Translations under genes and position numbers: made by a program
The notes under the pieces: generated by a model
What the model was told of the DNA's origin: nothing
The model's input: only the letters and a program-made list of their open reading frames with translations
The model's database searches: none
Shown here: piece after piece, positions 50,748 through 64,000 of the stretch
Layout: each line of letters opens with the position of its first letter
How positions within the stretch are numbered: the stretch's first letter is position 1
DNA from: a virus
IMG/VR virus record: IMGVR_UViG_3300033153_016044
Span: 33,730 to 97,729 of that record
Reading direction: 5' to 3' (one strand)
Length of the DNA stretch: 64,000 bases

Positions 50748-50874
50748 TTGTATTCCTCTCAATTAAATCCTTTTGTGAGACCCCGGCGACAGTCTTATGA
50801 ATAACGTCAACAAAGTCAGGGGATTTTTTAGCTGTTAATCCGGTAGTAAACTCTATGTCAAATTTGTCTCTCAT
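50677..50874 (-). CDS. Small acidic protein, 65 aa
   Basis: Starts MRDKFDIEFTTGLTAK with GAGGAG about 10 nt upstream and ends in a strongly acidic tail (DETEEQEEPNV). It overlaps the sigma-like gene by about 70 nt. An acidic partner of a sigma factor, such as a co-activator like T4 gp33, is conceivable, but nothing in the sequence proves it. Confidence 0.5.
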   Translation of the reverse strand: MRDKFDIEFTTGLTAKKSPDFVDVIHKTVAGVSQKDLIERNTIGEVKNSEDQLTDETEEQEEPNV

Positions 50875-51040
50875 TTTGACGCTTCTCCTCAAAGTATCTA
50901 TATGCATCAGACTTTTCGATGGTCTTTAGTTCTCCACCACAACCTTGTCCACATGCAAGCTGTTTCTGAGCTACCACTTTATTAGTAGACAGAAAGATGT
51001 TATCGCACTCTTCACACAATAAAAAAACTGTCTTTTTCAT
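50858..51040 (-). CDS. Zinc-ribbon protein, 60 aa
   Basis: MKKTVFLLCEECDNIFLS with a second pair CGQGCGG gives a CxxC...CxxxC zinc ribbon. It is the first gene of the sigma operon, with GGAGG 5 nt before its ATG and a GGTGTATAAT motif just ahead. A start upstream at 51052 (TTG) is rejected because it is not supported by the ribosome site. Confidence 0.6.
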   Translation of the reverse strand: MKKTVFLLCEECDNIFLSTNKVVAQKQLACGQGCGGELKTIEKSDAYRYFEEKRQNERQI

Positions 51041-51054
51041 TGTAACCTCCAATA

Positions 51055-51064
51055 ATTATACACC
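51055..51064 (-). promoter_or_regulatory. GGTGTAT late-type promoter (zinc ribbon-sigma operon)
   Basis: The minus strand reads GGTGTATAATTATT immediately after the RNR-operon terminator and about 15 nt before the zinc-ribbon ATG. Confidence 0.65.
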
Positions 51065-51072
51065 ATAAAAAA

Positions 51073-51098
51073 AGACTCTTCTAATAAAGGAAGAGCCT
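51073..51098 (-). terminator. Intrinsic terminator after the RNR operon
   Basis: On the minus strand AGGCTCTTC pairs with GAAGAGTCT (one G-U) around an 8-nt loop and is followed by seven T residues. Confidence 0.85.
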
Positions 51099-51194
51099 AG
51101 AACTACTTAAATGTATTTTATTTAATCTTTTTCTCAACAATTTTTTCGCACTCTCCAACCACCAATACATTAGACAAGAGCAAGTCCAAAACAT

Positions 51195-51365
51195 TTAATC
51201 TTCATGGTCACATTGGATGCAACTTAAATGCCCCACCTTGGCGCGTGAGCACTCACAGTAAAGCTGGTCTCTGTAAGACTTTATCTCTCTCAGCAGAGCT
51301 TCTACCGACTCGGTCTCTCCACCACATATGATATCCCACGCTTCATCTTCAATAGTTCTACTCAT
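51195..51365 (-). CDS. Small Cys-rich protein, 56 aa
   Basis: MSRTIEDEAWDIICGG with a C-terminal CECSRAKVGHLSCIQCDHED, a probable zinc site. AAGGAG lies 11 nt upstream of the ATG at 51365, and the start overlaps the upstream gene's end. It is the last gene of the RNR operon before the terminator. Function unknown. Confidence 0.5.
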   Translation of the reverse strand: MSRTIEDEAWDIICGGETESVEALLREIKSYRDQLYCECSRAKVGHLSCIQCDHED

Positions 51366-51546
51366 CTTCACCACAACTCCTTGCGGCAATCCGCGCATCC
51401 TCATGCTTCCTTATTTCCAGCCCACAATAATCGCAGGTCATCGTGCGGTAATCAAATAGCTCGGATAATAATATCCTAAGCCCTTTGTAGTCACGCATTT
51501 GCATTATCTCAAACATGGTATTTTTAATAAGTTCTTCTTTTGTCAT
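51358..51546 (-). CDS. Small protein with CxxC, 62 aa
   Basis: MTKEELIKNTMFEIMQMRDY with TCDYCGLEIRKHEDARIAARSC near the C-terminus, likely binding one zinc. The N-terminal helix (EELIKNTMFEI) resembles the one in the next gene (EAWDIICGG...EALLREI), so the two may be diverged paralogues. It overlaps both neighbours by a few bases. Confidence 0.5.
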   Translation of the reverse strand: MTKEELIKNTMFEIMQMRDYKGLRILLSELFDYRTMTCDYCGLEIRKHEDARIAARSCGEDE

Positions 51547-51743
51547 TCTATTACTCGCCTTTCGGAAAAGTTCTCTGACATAGTTTTAAGGAAGTCTTTA
51601 AGAATCTCCCCTTCCGTCCTGCCTCTTGTTGCACCGCAGGGGAACTTCCACTGCTTATTATTGACATAGAGTTCATAACCCTTATCATCCCCGGCTCTGG
51701 CTCCTCTATAGCAAACCTCAACTATCTCTATATTCTCAAACAT
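51543..51743 (-). CDS. Hypothetical protein, 66 aa
   Basis: Starts MFENIEIVEVCYRGAR at 51743, overlapping the RNR stop (TAATG), and ends SENFSERRVIE. It is beta-rich at the start and helical at the end, with two cysteines. Directly downstream of RNR and translationally coupled to it. No recognised family. Confidence 0.5.
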   Translation of the reverse strand: MFENIEIVEVCYRGARAGDDKGYELYVNNKQWKFPCGATRGRTEGEILKDFLKTMSENFSERRVIE

Positions 51744-57390: not shown

Positions 57391-57417
57391 CAGGCTCCGG
57401 TGTTCAACCGGAGCCTG
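57391..57417 (+). terminator. Hairpin terminator-like element
   Basis: CAGGCTCCGG pairs perfectly with CCGGAGCCTG around loop TGTTCAA, 10 nt past the stop of the 131-aa gene. No T-run. Confidence 0.7.
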
Positions 57418-57453
57418 CACCGTGTTGGTGTTGGCTACGCCAACCTTGCTCTC

Positions 57454-57500
57454 CGACGGGACCTCCGCAACCTGGGAAGGTTTTACATTTCTGTGACACT
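57454..57500 (+). repeat. 47-bp direct repeat, copy 2
   Basis: Differs at three positions from the copy at 55561-55607 and likewise carries a GTGACA promoter core at its right end. Confidence 0.85.
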
Positions 57501-57524
57501 TCGCCGTTTTATTATGGTTACGTT
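57481..57524 (+). promoter_or_regulatory. GTGACA-type promoter element 2
   Basis: TTTTACATTTCTGTGACACT with TACGTT 20 bp after GTGACA. First of three stacked copies before the 232-aa gene. Confidence 0.6.
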
Positions 57525-57535
57525 CGCCATTTTCC

Positions 57536-57578
57536 TTTTACATTTCCGTGACACTTCACCCCTGGGGTCGGGTATAAT
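57536..57578 (+). promoter_or_regulatory. GTGACA-type promoter element 3
   Basis: TTTTACATTTCCGTGACACT with a perfect TATAAT 19 bp after GTGACA. Confidence 0.7.
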
Positions 57579-57602
57579 CCCCCAAAAAAAATTCTGAGAC
57601 GG

Positions 57603-57643
57603 TACACTTCTGTGACAATTCTCCGGATTGGAATCGTTACGCT
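57603..57643 (+). promoter_or_regulatory. GTGACA-type promoter element 4
   Basis: TACACTTCTGTGACAATT with TACGCT 20 bp after GTGACA. It lies about 87 nt upstream of the 232-aa gene. The remaining part of the 349-nt gap is a GC-rich leader with CGCCTCGC-type inverted repeats. Confidence 0.55.
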
Positions 57644-57729
57644 AGACGGGCGTCGCCTCGCAAGCGGGGGCGGCGCGCGTCGCCAGGTATCCACTGGGGC
57701 GCTGATACGCTTGAAAAGGGATTTTCAAA

Positions 57730-58428
57730 ATGGCTAAATTTTCTGATATGTTTGCTGTGGCGACTGAGGAGTTCAACAAAGGTGATACGAAGGGATTCGC
57801 GGCCTACGCCGATATGGTGGCCAAGGTCACCGGCTCGACTGCTGAGGATTTCCTCGCGGCCTTCACTCTCCATCGCGCCAAGGCGGCGCAGGAGTCTTCA
57901 ATCACGGCAATCAACGAGTTCGCCGCAACCCGAACCGTCACCAAAACGGTGATGGCTCTCCTCAACAAGTGCCACGACCACGTCAAGGCTTTCACTATCG
58001 CCGAAGTCAAGGATTCGGAAGACAAGGTTACGACACCGGGATACAAGCCCAAGCTGACCGTCGTGATTGAGTACACCCCCAGCACCGGCGAGGGGAACGA
58101 TATGGTCGCCGCAAAGGCGGCCTTCAAGGTGATTGCTGGCAAGGTCAGCACGCGCAGCGGAGGCGGCAAAGGCGGCACGAAGAAAGGGCGTATCAGCCTG
58201 ATGAACGCCTACAAGTGGGTAAACAAGAACATCGATGGTGGCGAGCGATTCAAGCTAGAGGCAGCCGACGATGGTGGCACCCGCTACTGGCCCGCTGGGG
58301 ATACCGGCGCTGGTCGATACATTCCTAATAAGGGATTGACCAAGTTCCTCCTCGCTGTCGAGAACGATTGCGAGACTCTGAATCACGCACGGTCCTACGA
58401 TGGGATGACCTCGCTTCGCAAGGAATAG
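57730..58428 (+). CDS. Hypothetical protein with three upstream promoters, 232 aa
   Basis: AAGGG lies about 9 nt before the ATG. N-terminal ~110 residues are helical (MAKFSDMFAVATEEFNKGD). A Gly/Ser/Lys linker follows near residue 143 (TRSGGGKGGTKKGR), and the C-terminal ~85 residues are compact (LMNAYKWVNKNIDGGERFKL). The linker and C-terminal domain could bind nucleic acid. Three stacked promoter elements and a perfect 13-bp hairpin behind it suggest very strong early expression. No family recognised. Confidence 0.65.
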   Translation: MAKFSDMFAVATEEFNKGDTKGFAAYADMVAKVTGSTAEDFLAAFTLHRAKAAQESSITAINEFAATRTVTKTVMALLNKCHDHVKAFTIAEVKDSEDKVTTPGYKPKLTVVIEYTPSTGEGNDMVAAKAAFKVIAGKVSTRSGGGKGGTKKGRISLMNAYKWVNKNIDGGERFKLEAADDGGTRYWPAGDTGAGRYIPNKGLTKFLLAVENDCETLNHARSYDGMTSLRKE

Positions 58429-58435
58429 GGGATAC

Positions 58436-58466
58436 GGGGGCGGGGGCCGATACGGCCCCCGCCCCC
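58436..58466 (+). terminator. Perfect 13-bp GC hairpin after the 232-aa gene
   Basis: GGGGGCGGGGGCC pairs with GGCCCCCGCCCCC around loop GATAC, 8 nt past the stop. Confidence 0.7.
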
Positions 58467-58519
58467 AGCCTTGATTGATATGATAGAGCGTGCGGGCGTT
58501 CAACCGTATCACACCTGCC

Positions 58520-58543
58520 ACTGACCCGCAAAGCCGGGTCAGT
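58520..58543 (+). terminator. Second hairpin before the ATPase-protease gene
   Basis: ACTGACCCG pairs with CGGGTCAGT around loop CAAAGC. It lies in the 305-nt gap 58429-58733, which also holds an AT-rich stretch and promoter element 5. Confidence 0.6.
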
Positions 58544-58642
58544 CCGATGGGACGGCTGGATACGGGGAATCCATGGACGATGGAGATATATCAAAAATCG
58601 CGATATGATATTATCAATCCATTATTAACATCTATCAAAACA

Positions 58643-58686
58643 TTTTACACTTCTGTGACACTTCCCCCTCAAGATAGTGTTACAAT
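58643..58686 (+). promoter_or_regulatory. GTGACA-type promoter element 5
   Basis: TTTTACACTTCTGTGACACT with TACAAT 20 bp after GTGACA, 48 nt upstream of the 497-aa gene. Confidence 0.65.
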
Positions 58687-58733
58687 CGTGATGCGGGAAT
58701 TCCCCGCTCTAATCCGAAAGGCAAGGCGATACG

Positions 58734-60227
58734 ATGCAAGGCAGCGAAGGCAAAGAGATTTTCTCGGTGAAGACACCGAACGATTACTGGCAAAAGGAGA
58801 TTGCCACTTATTACGATTGGCCCTACGCTTGGGGTCGCGAGATAGGGCAGAACTCCCTAGATGCTGGTGCTAAGAACATCAACATCACTCTGACTCCGGC
58901 AAAGGATATTCAACGAGACCCCGATAACGAGTGGAAGACAGATACGTGCTGGGTAGTGTGGGAGGACGATGGGTGTGGTATGGATAGGGACGACGGAGAA
59001 GGCAACCTAATCGTCTTTTCCAAGTTCCTCACCCTGGGCGCATCGCAGAAGAAGGATGGCGACACCGGGGGATTCGGGTGGGCAAAGAAGCTCATCTGCT
59101 TCGCGATGGTCGAGTGGCACATCAGGACCGGCACCCTTCATATCCACGGGGAGGGTGGTCAATACTGGACCGAAGACAATCTTGAGTACGTCGAGGGAAC
59201 GAAGATGCGGATTCGCGTTCCGGCAGCGACCTGGCGGATTCGGCGGAACATCGAGAAATGGCTCTGCTGGACCGATACCAAGGGCGCAACAGTGATGCTG
59301 GATGGTCGCGTCCTCAAAACCTTCGCCGATGTTGCAGTCAAGGGGACTCGCCCAATCCCCGGCGTCGATTGGGCCAAGATGACCGTGACTGAGGTCTCTG
59401 GTCAAAATATTATCATTCGGGCCAACGGCCAGATGATGAGCACGCTGAGCGGGAGCGATGACCAGAAGTACGTAGTGGTGATTGACGTGATTGGCAAGAG
59501 CACCGACCACTTCATGTCGAATCGCGACGGATTGAGGTCCAAGAGCAGAAACGAGATTCAAGGATTTCTCGACAGACTCTTCGCCAACCCCAACCGTATC
59601 TCCAAGCTCGACACTCCTATCTGCCACGATTACAGGGGTGGCAAGGGTGCGATTGAGATTGGGATTTGCGACGGTTCGGGCGCAGACCTCTCCTTCCTCC
59701 TCGAATCGGGAATCGACCTGGTCAAGATGTTGACTGAGCTATTCTCAAAGGAGCGCGGTTCCGCTGGGCACGATAGCTTCGACATCCACGTTCACAACGA
59801 GATGGAGGGTCACGAGATTCCCGAGCGATTCCTCCCCGGCACCTGGGACAAGAAGGCGATTAAGATGATGGCCGAGTGGTGCGCCCTCATCAAGTTCGTC
59901 GGAGAGGTCACCGGATACAACGGACCGATTACTCCGGGCTGGGTGTTCAGTCCAGGCACCACAGCGATGCATAAGCGCGGACACATTCTCCTCAATCCTC
60001 TCTACATAGATGACAAGACGTTTCAGGTTACTGACCGATTAGTCGGCACCGGACCCAGCTCCGATTGGAACTCGATGGTCACGTCTGTGGTCCACGAGTT
60101 TACCCACGCCCACGGCTATCACAACCATGACGTCCGATTCATTAGCGCGATGGGTATGTATTACGCCATGGTGATGGATAACGCCGAGGACCTCCAGGAA
60201 CTCCGCGATTCGTTCTACGGCTGCTAG
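58734..60227 (+). CDS. GHKL (rIIA-like) ATPase fused to a zinc-protease motif, 497 aa
   Basis: Residues about 30-200 carry the GHKL ATP-binding motifs: N-box REIGQNSLDAGA (E36, N40, D43), G1 EDDGCGM (78-83) and the lid GGFGWAKK (112-119). T4 rIIA has the same ATPase type. After a transducer-like middle comes a C-terminal domain with VVHEFTHAHGYHNHD, giving H454, E455 and H458 of an HExxH site plus further His/Asp ligands at 463-466, close to but not exactly the metzincin spacing. ATP-dependent conformational change controlling proteolysis, or a rII-like early membrane or defence function, are possibilities. AAGG precedes the ATG. Confidence 0.75.
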   Translation: MQGSEGKEIFSVKTPNDYWQKEIATYYDWPYAWGREIGQNSLDAGAKNINITLTPAKDIQRDPDNEWKTDTCWVVWEDDGCGMDRDDGEGNLIVFSKFLTLGASQKKDGDTGGFGWAKKLICFAMVEWHIRTGTLHIHGEGGQYWTEDNLEYVEGTKMRIRVPAATWRIRRNIEKWLCWTDTKGATVMLDGRVLKTFADVAVKGTRPIPGVDWAKMTVTEVSGQNIIIRANGQMMSTLSGSDDQKYVVVIDVIGKSTDHFMSNRDGLRSKSRNEIQGFLDRLFANPNRISKLDTPICHDYRGGKGAIEIGICDGSGADLSFLLESGIDLVKMLTELFSKERGSAGHDSFDIHVHNEMEGHEIPERFLPGTWDKKAIKMMAEWCALIKFVGEVTGYNGPITPGWVFSPGTTAMHKRGHILLNPLYIDDKTFQVTDRLVGTGPSSDWNSMVTSVVHEFTHAHGYHNHDVRFISAMGMYYAMVMDNAEDLQELRDSFYGC

Positions 60228-62365: not shown

Positions 62366-62419
62366 CTGCCAAAATGGCAGATTTGACAGGCAAAACGGCC
62401 AAAACTGCCAAAATGGCAG
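62366..62419. repeat. Two identical 15-bp palindromes
   Basis: CTGCCAAAATGGCAG occurs at 62366-62380 and 62405-62419, with related CAGGCAAAACGGCC between. It could be a paired operator or two small hairpins. It lies just before a GC-rich stretch and the structured RNA region. Confidence 0.6.
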
Positions 62420-62561
62420 GCCCAGGCGACGTAAACAAAGGAGTTACGCGCGGCACGGGGTTCGCTCTAGGCAAGGCTCGGCCCGCCGGTACGTCCGCGC
62501 GGGTCGATGCGGCCCCCGCTATCGCGCGGGTCGCGCGGGACGGCTCGCGTATCTTCGCGAG

Positions 62562-62669
62562 ATGTTCTTTCACAATTCGTATCGGCTGGCGCAAGGGACG
62601 GATGAAACCTTGCACAGTAGCGGGATTGCTATCTTCTTCGGTGTTTTTGCCGTGGTAGTGATTGCATGA
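62562..62669 (+). CDS. Possible 35-aa membrane peptide
   Basis: MFFHNSYRLAQGTDETLHSS followed by a hydrophobic C-terminal helix (GIAIFFGVFAVVVIA). The ribosome site is weak (CGCGAG). The frame is open far upstream through GC-rich sequence, which lowers confidence. Confidence 0.3.
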   Translation: MFFHNSYRLAQGTDETLHSSGIAIFFGVFAVVVIA

Positions 62670-62689
62670 CGCGAGACGATATTTCGGCG

Positions 62690-63712
62690 AGGATTGATAC
62701 CATGGGGTTTTAATCCTACCTTCTTCTTCCCTTACGAGGGGATTAGATTGGCCTAGCCTAGTGCCAATGGTGCCGGATAACATTCGACTCGAAGATTGTA
62801 GCGTTTAGCGTAATCACTCCGGTCTAAACTTTGATGTGCGAACATCAGGACTGCTTTAGATACGGCTCCCGTCGGATGTCTGTGGCTGCGATTATTTGGT
62901 CAGTGTAAAACCTGATTGAGAATCGTAAGTGCAGATAGCTGGCGGAATCTGTTCTAGATGTGGACCTGATTAGTAGCCGCACGAGGGGGATAGACGATGG
63001 CTATGAATCAACATAGCTGAGATGACCTCTTATACCTGTAGGGGCGATTCAAACTGCATTCGATACGGTGATATTTGACAATTAGACGTTGCGTGCGTGA
63101 GGGATACAGCTGTAATCGCTGTGTCTTACACTCGATACGTACTTGCCAATTATATATCGACCCCGGAGACAAGTTAGGGATTTATTCCTAGCCTAGGTCC
63201 ACGATGGCAGTCGATGTATATGGTGTTGTGGTGACGAACACAGATTTAACTGTGCGGTCTAACTATTGTTGTCAGGATGGCAATAATCACAACACTAGGA
63301 TGTCTTAGACGGCATTGTAGCAGGGACGTTGAGATAGCGCTGACAGTTAGGGCAATAAGAACCTATCGTAACGATGTTGGGCAACCTACCCCGGATTTAT
63401 TTCTAGGATGACCCCGACAGGCGACGATAGCAGGCAATTGTGGCACAAATCCACGGGGTGAGTAAACATCCTAGCCTAGCTGCGTAACGTGGTGCTTTTT
63501 CATCAGAAAGCACAATCTGTAATGCGACATTAGCCCGCTCTATCGACAGTAGAGCCGGTGTCCATCATAGACAGATTGAGCCTGGGCGGAAGGGTCATTC
63601 ACCGATGACACGGGTGATGAAACTAGTACCAAGCCAAATCAGGACACTTTCTCGATTTACGAGAGACACCGGGTGGCGGTGATAGGTGAGACTCCTATGT
63701 GTCCAATCTTCT
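62690..63712 (+). ncRNA. Large structured non-coding RNA, GOLLD/ROOL-like candidate
   Basis: About 1 kb with no plausible gene on either strand and dense complementary helices, listed 5' to 3'. TTGGC/GCCAA at 62748-62767. A GNRA hairpin TGATGT-GCGA-ACATCA at 62832-62847 inside TCTAAA/TTTAGA. CGATT/AATCG (62889/62921) enclosing TCAG/CTGA. GCTATG/CATAGC at 63000-63017. GATACAGC/GCTGTGTC at 63103-63125. GTGTTGTG/CACAACAC (63223/63288) closing a junction with CACAG/CTGTG and TATTG/CAATA. CTAGGATG-ACCCCG with CGGGGT-CATCCTAG (63403-63474). GTGCTTT/AAAGCAC at 63492-63513. GCCC/GGGC enclosing GCTCTA/TAGAGC and TGTC/GACA. A cloverleaf at 63642-63704. Orientation is presumed rightward like the neighbours. 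Class membership is untested. Confidence 0.75.
63642..63704 (+). other. Cloverleaf (four-way junction) at the 3' end of the structured RNA
   Basis: GGACAC and GTGTCC close a 63-nt unit with three hairpins: TCTCG-ATTTA-CGAGA, CACC-GGGTGGC-GGTG and ATAGG-TGAGACT-CCTAT. The first two junction gaps are 2 nt each and the others are zero. It resembles a tRNA outline but lacks the TTCRA loop, variable loop and 5-bp anticodon stem. Confidence 0.7.
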
Positions 63713-63733: not shown

Positions 63734-64000
63734 ATGCTTCAGATAACGTTTGTTAAGACGGGTAAAACCGTCGATTTCTCTCTTGCGGTTCCATCGCATG
63801 TTGTTTCTGACCAAATCAGGGAGAACAGGGAGCCGATGATGATTCATCTAGAGGATTGCGTCGTCGCCGTCGATTACGACTCCGGTTCGATTGCTGCACT
63901 CAATGTGCTTGAGGTCGATTGCGCCAAGAAAACGGGATTGAGTCCCGAACTAATCGAGAACATCTTGGCTCTGGCGATTAACGACAAAGAATCCTACGAC
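63734..64000 (+). CDS. Hypothetical gene, truncated by the window edge
   Basis: Open from ATG 63734 to the end, 89 codons so far, with AAAGGG about 7 nt upstream. The product starts MLQITFVKTGKTVDFSLAV and contains MMIHLEDCVVAVDYDSGS, an alpha/beta-like pattern. Codon use matches the rightward genes. It directly follows the structured RNA. Not recognised. Confidence 0.7.
   Translation, partial: MLQITFVKTGKTVDFSLAVPSHVVSDQIRENREPMMIHLEDCVVAVDYDSGSIAALNVLEVDCAKKTGLSPELIENILALAINDKESYD

Follow-up and report, generated by a model that had tools for sequence, protein, structure and literature searches.

A candidate kilobase-long structured RNA in a phage arm, placed like GOLLD and ROOL but outside both families

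Close to the end of a viral contig lies a stretch of about one kilobase that has no gene-like reading frame and that is predicted to fold, on one strand only, better than shuffled versions of itself. The stretch of DNA analysed, hereafter the window, comprises 64 kb (positions 33730-97729 of the 97.7-kb viral record IMGVR_UViG_3300033153_016044). Thermodynamic predictions, strand asymmetry and the absence of coding together support the reading of this part of the phage arm as a large structured non-coding RNA, which has the standing of a single-sequence candidate (Table 1). Few known RNAs match the giant phage RNAs in size and elaboration, and we know of no established function for them; any function ascribed to the present candidate is likewise reached by inference only. 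Our best reading, which we hold at about even odds, is that the region encodes a large structured phage RNA working like those of the GOLLD and ROOL kind while standing outside either family; it seems fair to file it with the giant phage RNAs in its presumed manner of working and its placement, with no family assigned. A first-pass annotation of this DNA had proposed a large structured non-coding RNA, either a member of this class or a new one: the structure and a GOLLD/ROOL-like setting are supported, while membership in the known families is not.

In keeping with that annotation, coding capacity is poor. The longest closed open reading frame, on either strand, reaches 54 aa, as compared with a median of 79 aa and a 5th percentile of 56 aa in shuffled sequences. 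By contrast, secondary structure is in excess, and this on the plus strand only. The minimum free energy of the best-estimate interval is -384.8 kcal/mol, with a z-score of -5.68 against 60 dinucleotide shuffles; the interval 62690-63712 gives -361.9 kcal/mol (z -7.8, 30 shuffles) and a further plus-strand estimate is -5.4 (20 shuffles), while the minus strand yields -0.2 and -1.1. Among 30 strand-windows of 1080 nt taken from the phage, the region has the lowest z, 28 controls falling between -4.7 and +2.0, and bases with a partner at P > 0.9 make up 32% of the RNA versus 15% in shuffles. A long stretch devoid of ORFs, combined with a strand-specific excess of structure, is what a loose definition of giant phage non-coding RNAs asks for. 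The signal is nevertheless cumulative over the full length, since half-length windows (500 nt) are not extreme: the first half of the RNA (z -3.1) ranks 12th of 212 and the second half falls outside the 15 lowest. The initial impression of a highly structured stretch thus holds for the plus strand, and is weaker at half length. The z-score is in fact neither necessary nor sufficient, because these half-windows are unremarkable and because the abundant RNA of phage ICP1, which is expressed, reaches only -2.7 by the same method.

This leaves room, if not much, for a trivial account of the data, in which the region would be non-functional or loosely constrained intergenic DNA and its fold an effect of composition together with the selection bias that comes with seeking helices. 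A single sequence with no homologue found, 500-nt windows ranking just 12th or lower of 212, and another interval of the same arm (57401-58480) reaching z -4.7 all lend it some weight. However, composition was controlled by the dinucleotide shuffles, the full-length z is the lowest of 30 and appears on one strand only, and a triple 10-mer of any kind, such as the one described below, was absent from all 3000 shuffles. Furthermore, genes are very densely packed in the rest of the phage, which would make a 1-kb spacer odd. We therefore consider this account rather unlikely.

As for the anatomy of the candidate RNA, the many helices first reported are borne out: they range from 4 to 20 bp, most with a mean pairing probability of 0.75-1.0, and the multi-branch structure and the terminal cloverleaf both figure in the predicted fold. 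Two details had to be revised. The 5' boundary, initially placed at 62690, moves 35-65 nt further upstream, to about 62625-62654, because the closing helix of the 5' domain and the first helix within it extend that far (Table 1). A 6-bp GNRA (GCGA) hairpin noticed at 62832-62847 is not favoured: a longer helix takes up its bases, leaving the hairpin an ensemble probability of about 0.001. Convincing promoter- or terminator-like signals bounding the RNA were not found.

The cloverleaf deserves particular attention. Its loops are 5, 5 and 7 nt long (AUUUA, GGUGG and UGAGACU), with zero linker bases; its predicted outline is tRNA-like, and the third loop matches a T-loop in size and outline. It is not a tRNA: ARAGORN and the Rfam tRNA model were negative, the anticodon-like loop has 5 nt, linkers are missing and there is no CCA. 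The sole near-hit in Rfam, pemK (RF02913), falls exactly there, at 23.9 bits against a gathering threshold of 34.8 (E 0.08-0.17), and pemK likewise has three hairpins in succession, whose loops measure 5, 5 and 7 nt, the third reading UGARAYU. This family is filed as cis-regulatory, and a gap of 30 nt separates the cloverleaf from the ATG of the gene at 63734; it includes a Shine-Dalgarno-like AAAGGG and no terminator. The RNA, or at least its cloverleaf, might hence be a long structured 5' leader, an untranslated region controlling that gene in cis. Yet about 1,050 nt far exceeds the usual length of leaders, the pemK score does not reach the threshold, and what the contig retains of the next gene has no Pfam match and yielded no relatives. 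The giant RNA of a sister phage (see below) has, moreover, its own terminator-like hairpin at its end. A leader is, on balance, improbable, to about the same degree as a fortuitous fold, these two being the chief competitors of the giant-RNA reading.

Table 1. Features of the candidate RNA and of its immediate genetic setting (window coordinates; P, pairing probability).
Feature	Position	Strand	Evidence or remark
GHKL-type ATPase, C-terminal HEFTH motif	58734..60227	+	Nearest long gene upstream of the RNA; Pfam HATPase_c 2.3e-05, just under the Pfam curated cut-off
Candidate giant structured non-coding RNA, best-estimate extent	62625..63704	+	Minimum free energy, z, strand asymmetry, pairing, short ORFs
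5' domain	62625..62998	+	Closing helix 62625-62639:62983-62998, P 0.75
Helix in 5' domain	62654-62665:62810-62820	+	Mean P 0.96
Hairpin in 5' domain	62690-62717	+	Mean P 0.98
CCTAGCCTAG copy 1	62752..62761	+	Apical part of hairpin 62747-62768
Long irregular hairpin, 147 nt	62836..62982	+	About 58 bp in four blocks; mean P 0.91-0.97
Central multi-branch domain	63086..63490	+	11-bp closing helix 63086-63096:63479-63490, P 0.75; inner helices P 0.72-0.99
CCTAGCCTAG copy 2	63187..63196	+	3' side of hairpin 63173-63192 and flank
CCTAGCCTAG copy 3	63470..63479	+	Partly paired with 63455-63457 and 63432-63435
3' hairpins 63492-63513, 63516-63571, 63574-63640	63492..63640	+	P 0.76-0.92
Terminal cloverleaf, perfect four-way junction	63642..63704	+	P 0.95-1.00; stem P = 1.00
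Next gene, start only	63734..64000	+	30 nt past the cloverleaf; truncated by contig end

The 10-mer CCUAGCCUAG occurs exactly three times, always inside the RNA and nowhere else in the window, the three copies of CCTAGCCTAG being exact and in a common orientation. As RNA, CUAGCCUAG is nearly self-complementary, with eight Watson-Crick pairs flanking one C-C mismatch and a predicted self-duplex energy of -6.4 kcal/mol, and we put forward the hypothesis that its copies may act as contact sites. Copies 2 and 3 are largely paired in the predicted fold, so that a loop-loop contact without refolding is plausible for copy 1 only. The motif also lends itself to a reading at the DNA level, where the region would be a replication origin, a packaging site or a cluster of operators, and CTAGCCTAG, palindromic about a single base, its repeated binding site. 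In favour of this, CTAGNCTAG reads as a perfect odd palindrome at the DNA level, present three times in the RNA region and at one other place in 64 kb. However, all three copies share their central base on one strand and the folding excess is strand-specific, neither of which a double-stranded DNA site needs; this makes such an element quite unlikely, well behind a leader. An internal duplication with a 435-nt register, suggested by the CCTAGCCTAG and CGGTCTAA pairs, is not convincing, its local score being reached by 4% of shuffles.

Scans of Rfam (4227 families) with the whole window and with surrounding segments of 1.1-2.5 kb, at E up to 10, produced no family match for the RNA. Membership in GOLLD, ROOL, OLE or HEARO, which had been contemplated at first, therefore lacks support, as no covariance model matches; those of GOLLD (RF02032) and ROOL (RF03087) also remained silent in the phage and in 26 related records. 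The same scans bear on the possibility of a catalytic RNA, whether a diverged self-splicing intron or another ribozyme. Size and branching would be compatible, but nothing among the group I, group II and ribozyme families matched at E up to 10 and an unsystematic look at the flanks showed no split gene, leaving this the least probable of the explanations considered, at the margin of what is worth entertaining.

The search for homologues was extended to sequence similarity. Using blastn, the RNA matched phages, plasmids and 49 related viral records only by chance pieces of 12-38 nt, and the same was true of two GTDB genomes with related terminases. When 2.9 million viral contigs were scanned with DNA patterns for either the repeated motif or the third cloverleaf hairpin, the outcome was nothing or one match, the latter rejected as a homologue as it lies inside a likely coding region (locus L145). 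Single-sequence covariance models for three domains (R1-R3), run over about 0.4-0.9 Mb of relatives, returned nothing better than E 4, as did R1 over 26 whole records, the exceptions being the query itself and R3 against its own hairpin read on the other strand (E 0.09). R3, which represents the 147-nt hairpin, revealed no second copy in the relatives' loci searched, and the tRNA islands of other relatives, screened for kilobase-long structured gaps, displayed only short or double-stranded signals.

Comparison with known large RNAs is instructive nonetheless. Both GOLLD and ROOL lie close to phage tRNA islands and multimerise by way of kissing loops (PMC12286853): the GOLLD multimer is partly held by symmetric kissing loops, ROOL forms a multimeric cage, and the OLE dimer involves a palindromic kissing loop (PMC12286853). 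In phage ICP1 the most abundant transcript is an ORF-less RNA of about 800 nt, which the authors likened to GOLLD and ROOL (PMC7567579), as was done by others for two abundant lncRNAs of phage K (PMC9241854). The present candidate resembles GOLLD in being phage-borne, ornate and of the same order of size (about 0.8 kb or more for GOLLD), and in lying in a phage arm; GOLLD is usually near tRNAs, and here tRNA islands are present in relatives, the window contig, where ARAGORN found no tRNA, ending just past the RNA. With ROOL, which lies near tRNA islands, it shares the status of a phage-borne giant RNA, but ROOL is shorter, at about 0.6 kb. The ICP1 and K transcripts are, like it, long and ORF-less, but their expression has been shown whereas the window RNA is predicted, and no sequence match was found in the phage collection. 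OLE, another large and ornate RNA, differs in that its Rfam model is unmatched by the window RNA and in that, to our knowledge, it is not a phage RNA.

The setting is best appreciated in a relative. Terminase profiles place the phage in a diverse clade of large phages, many with 17-28 tRNAs, and the nearest record with a full arm, IMGVR_UViG_3300033145_000192 (177 kb, here G006), has a terminase 58% identical to that of the window. Its ATPase homologue is 33% identical to the window ATPase. Its arm carries 45 tRNA genes (ARAGORN; loci L109, L110, L115 and L116), a tmRNA (L109:3699-4068) and its own non-coding structured RNA of 1.17 kb (L115:13630-14801; z -8.95, minus strand -5.4), which supports a GOLLD/ROOL-like setting. 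This RNA, which has no Rfam family, holds GCAA tetraloop hairpins and ends with a GC-rich terminator-like hairpin followed by six T, with a tRNA-Leu gene about 230 nt further. The two RNAs are alike in lineage, arm, strand and approximate size, and in having a 5' domain with an irregular hairpin of similar length; they differ in that the G006 RNA precedes the ATPase gene whereas the window RNA follows it, and in the terminator-like hairpin. Their sequences are not alignable above chance (local score 34; shuffle mean 25.7, maximum 37), models R1-R3 gave nothing significant between them, and for want of an alignment the G006 RNA supports the setting but yields no covariation. The G006 RNA may deserve follow-up more than the window RNA does. 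Run unfiltered against the G006 region, the cloverleaf model scores best (E 0.06 in 4.5 kb) at a site overlapping the tRNA-Leu gene, a suggestive hint, and only that, that the third hairpin and closing stem of the cloverleaf may resemble the T-arm and acceptor of this tRNA (L115:15035-15105).

Were the window RNA to work like the GOLLD and ROOL kind, it would be transcribed and accumulate during infection as an abundant structural RNA, with its 3' end at, or set by, the terminal cloverleaf. Its copies would associate via the CUAGCCUAG segments, as OLE, ROOL and GOLLD do through kissing loops, and the resulting RNA-only assembly would serve translation or the RNA environment of the infected cell. 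A bolder proposal, to which we give a rather low probability, is a new family of giant phage RNAs, forming homo-oligomers via three quasi-palindromic CUAGCCUAG contacts and endowed at the 3' end with a domain resembling a tRNA; in this lineage of large phages rich in tRNAs, unrelated giant RNAs would fill the arm. One more unrelated giant RNA, alongside that of the sister phage with its dozens of tRNAs and its tmRNA, would hint at repeated acquisition of such RNAs by large tRNA-rich phages, and CUAGCCUAG would provide a short, testable contact motif for assembly.

Genes of the window lie mostly on the minus strand and include those for the large terminase, the portal, very long proteins assigned to the tail from their length and position, along with a class II ribonucleotide reductase. 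A 980-base gap without long frames (50763-51742), which separates minus-strand genes from the reductase, folds strongly on neither strand when taken in 250-nt windows. The short plus-strand arm starts near 54.8 kb. The GHKL ATPase gene is the last long one in it that can be called with confidence; small doubtful frames separate it from the RNA, and the contig stops 296 nt past the cloverleaf. The C-terminal part of this ATPase displays an HExxH motif (HEFTH; HEITH or HELTH in relatives), so that a putative ATPase-metalloprotease fusion is possible, a combination for which no match was found in sequenced phages. The gene marks the corresponding arm in G006 (L116:1530-2990) and in a second relative, G005 (L119:6195-7673), the only two arms reached with the ATPase profile. 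No similar RNA was retained in the G005 arm, which has repeats instead: L119:7674-10399 is gene-poor and has many dispersed repeats (for example GAGACG(C/T)(A/T)AATG), and around 7626 a spot rich in hairpins folds strongly on both strands (z about -10). In the window itself, strong folding is seen between two plus-strand genes at 58301-58900 (one 300-nt window has z -6.7, and both strands of 58401-58900 give about -4.5), probably due to inverted repeats. Finally, just upstream of the RNA, positions 62369-62570 contain CCAAAATGGCAG repeats and then a patch with CGCGCGGG repeats and 65% G+C, versus 43% for the phage, possibly a piece of foreign DNA.
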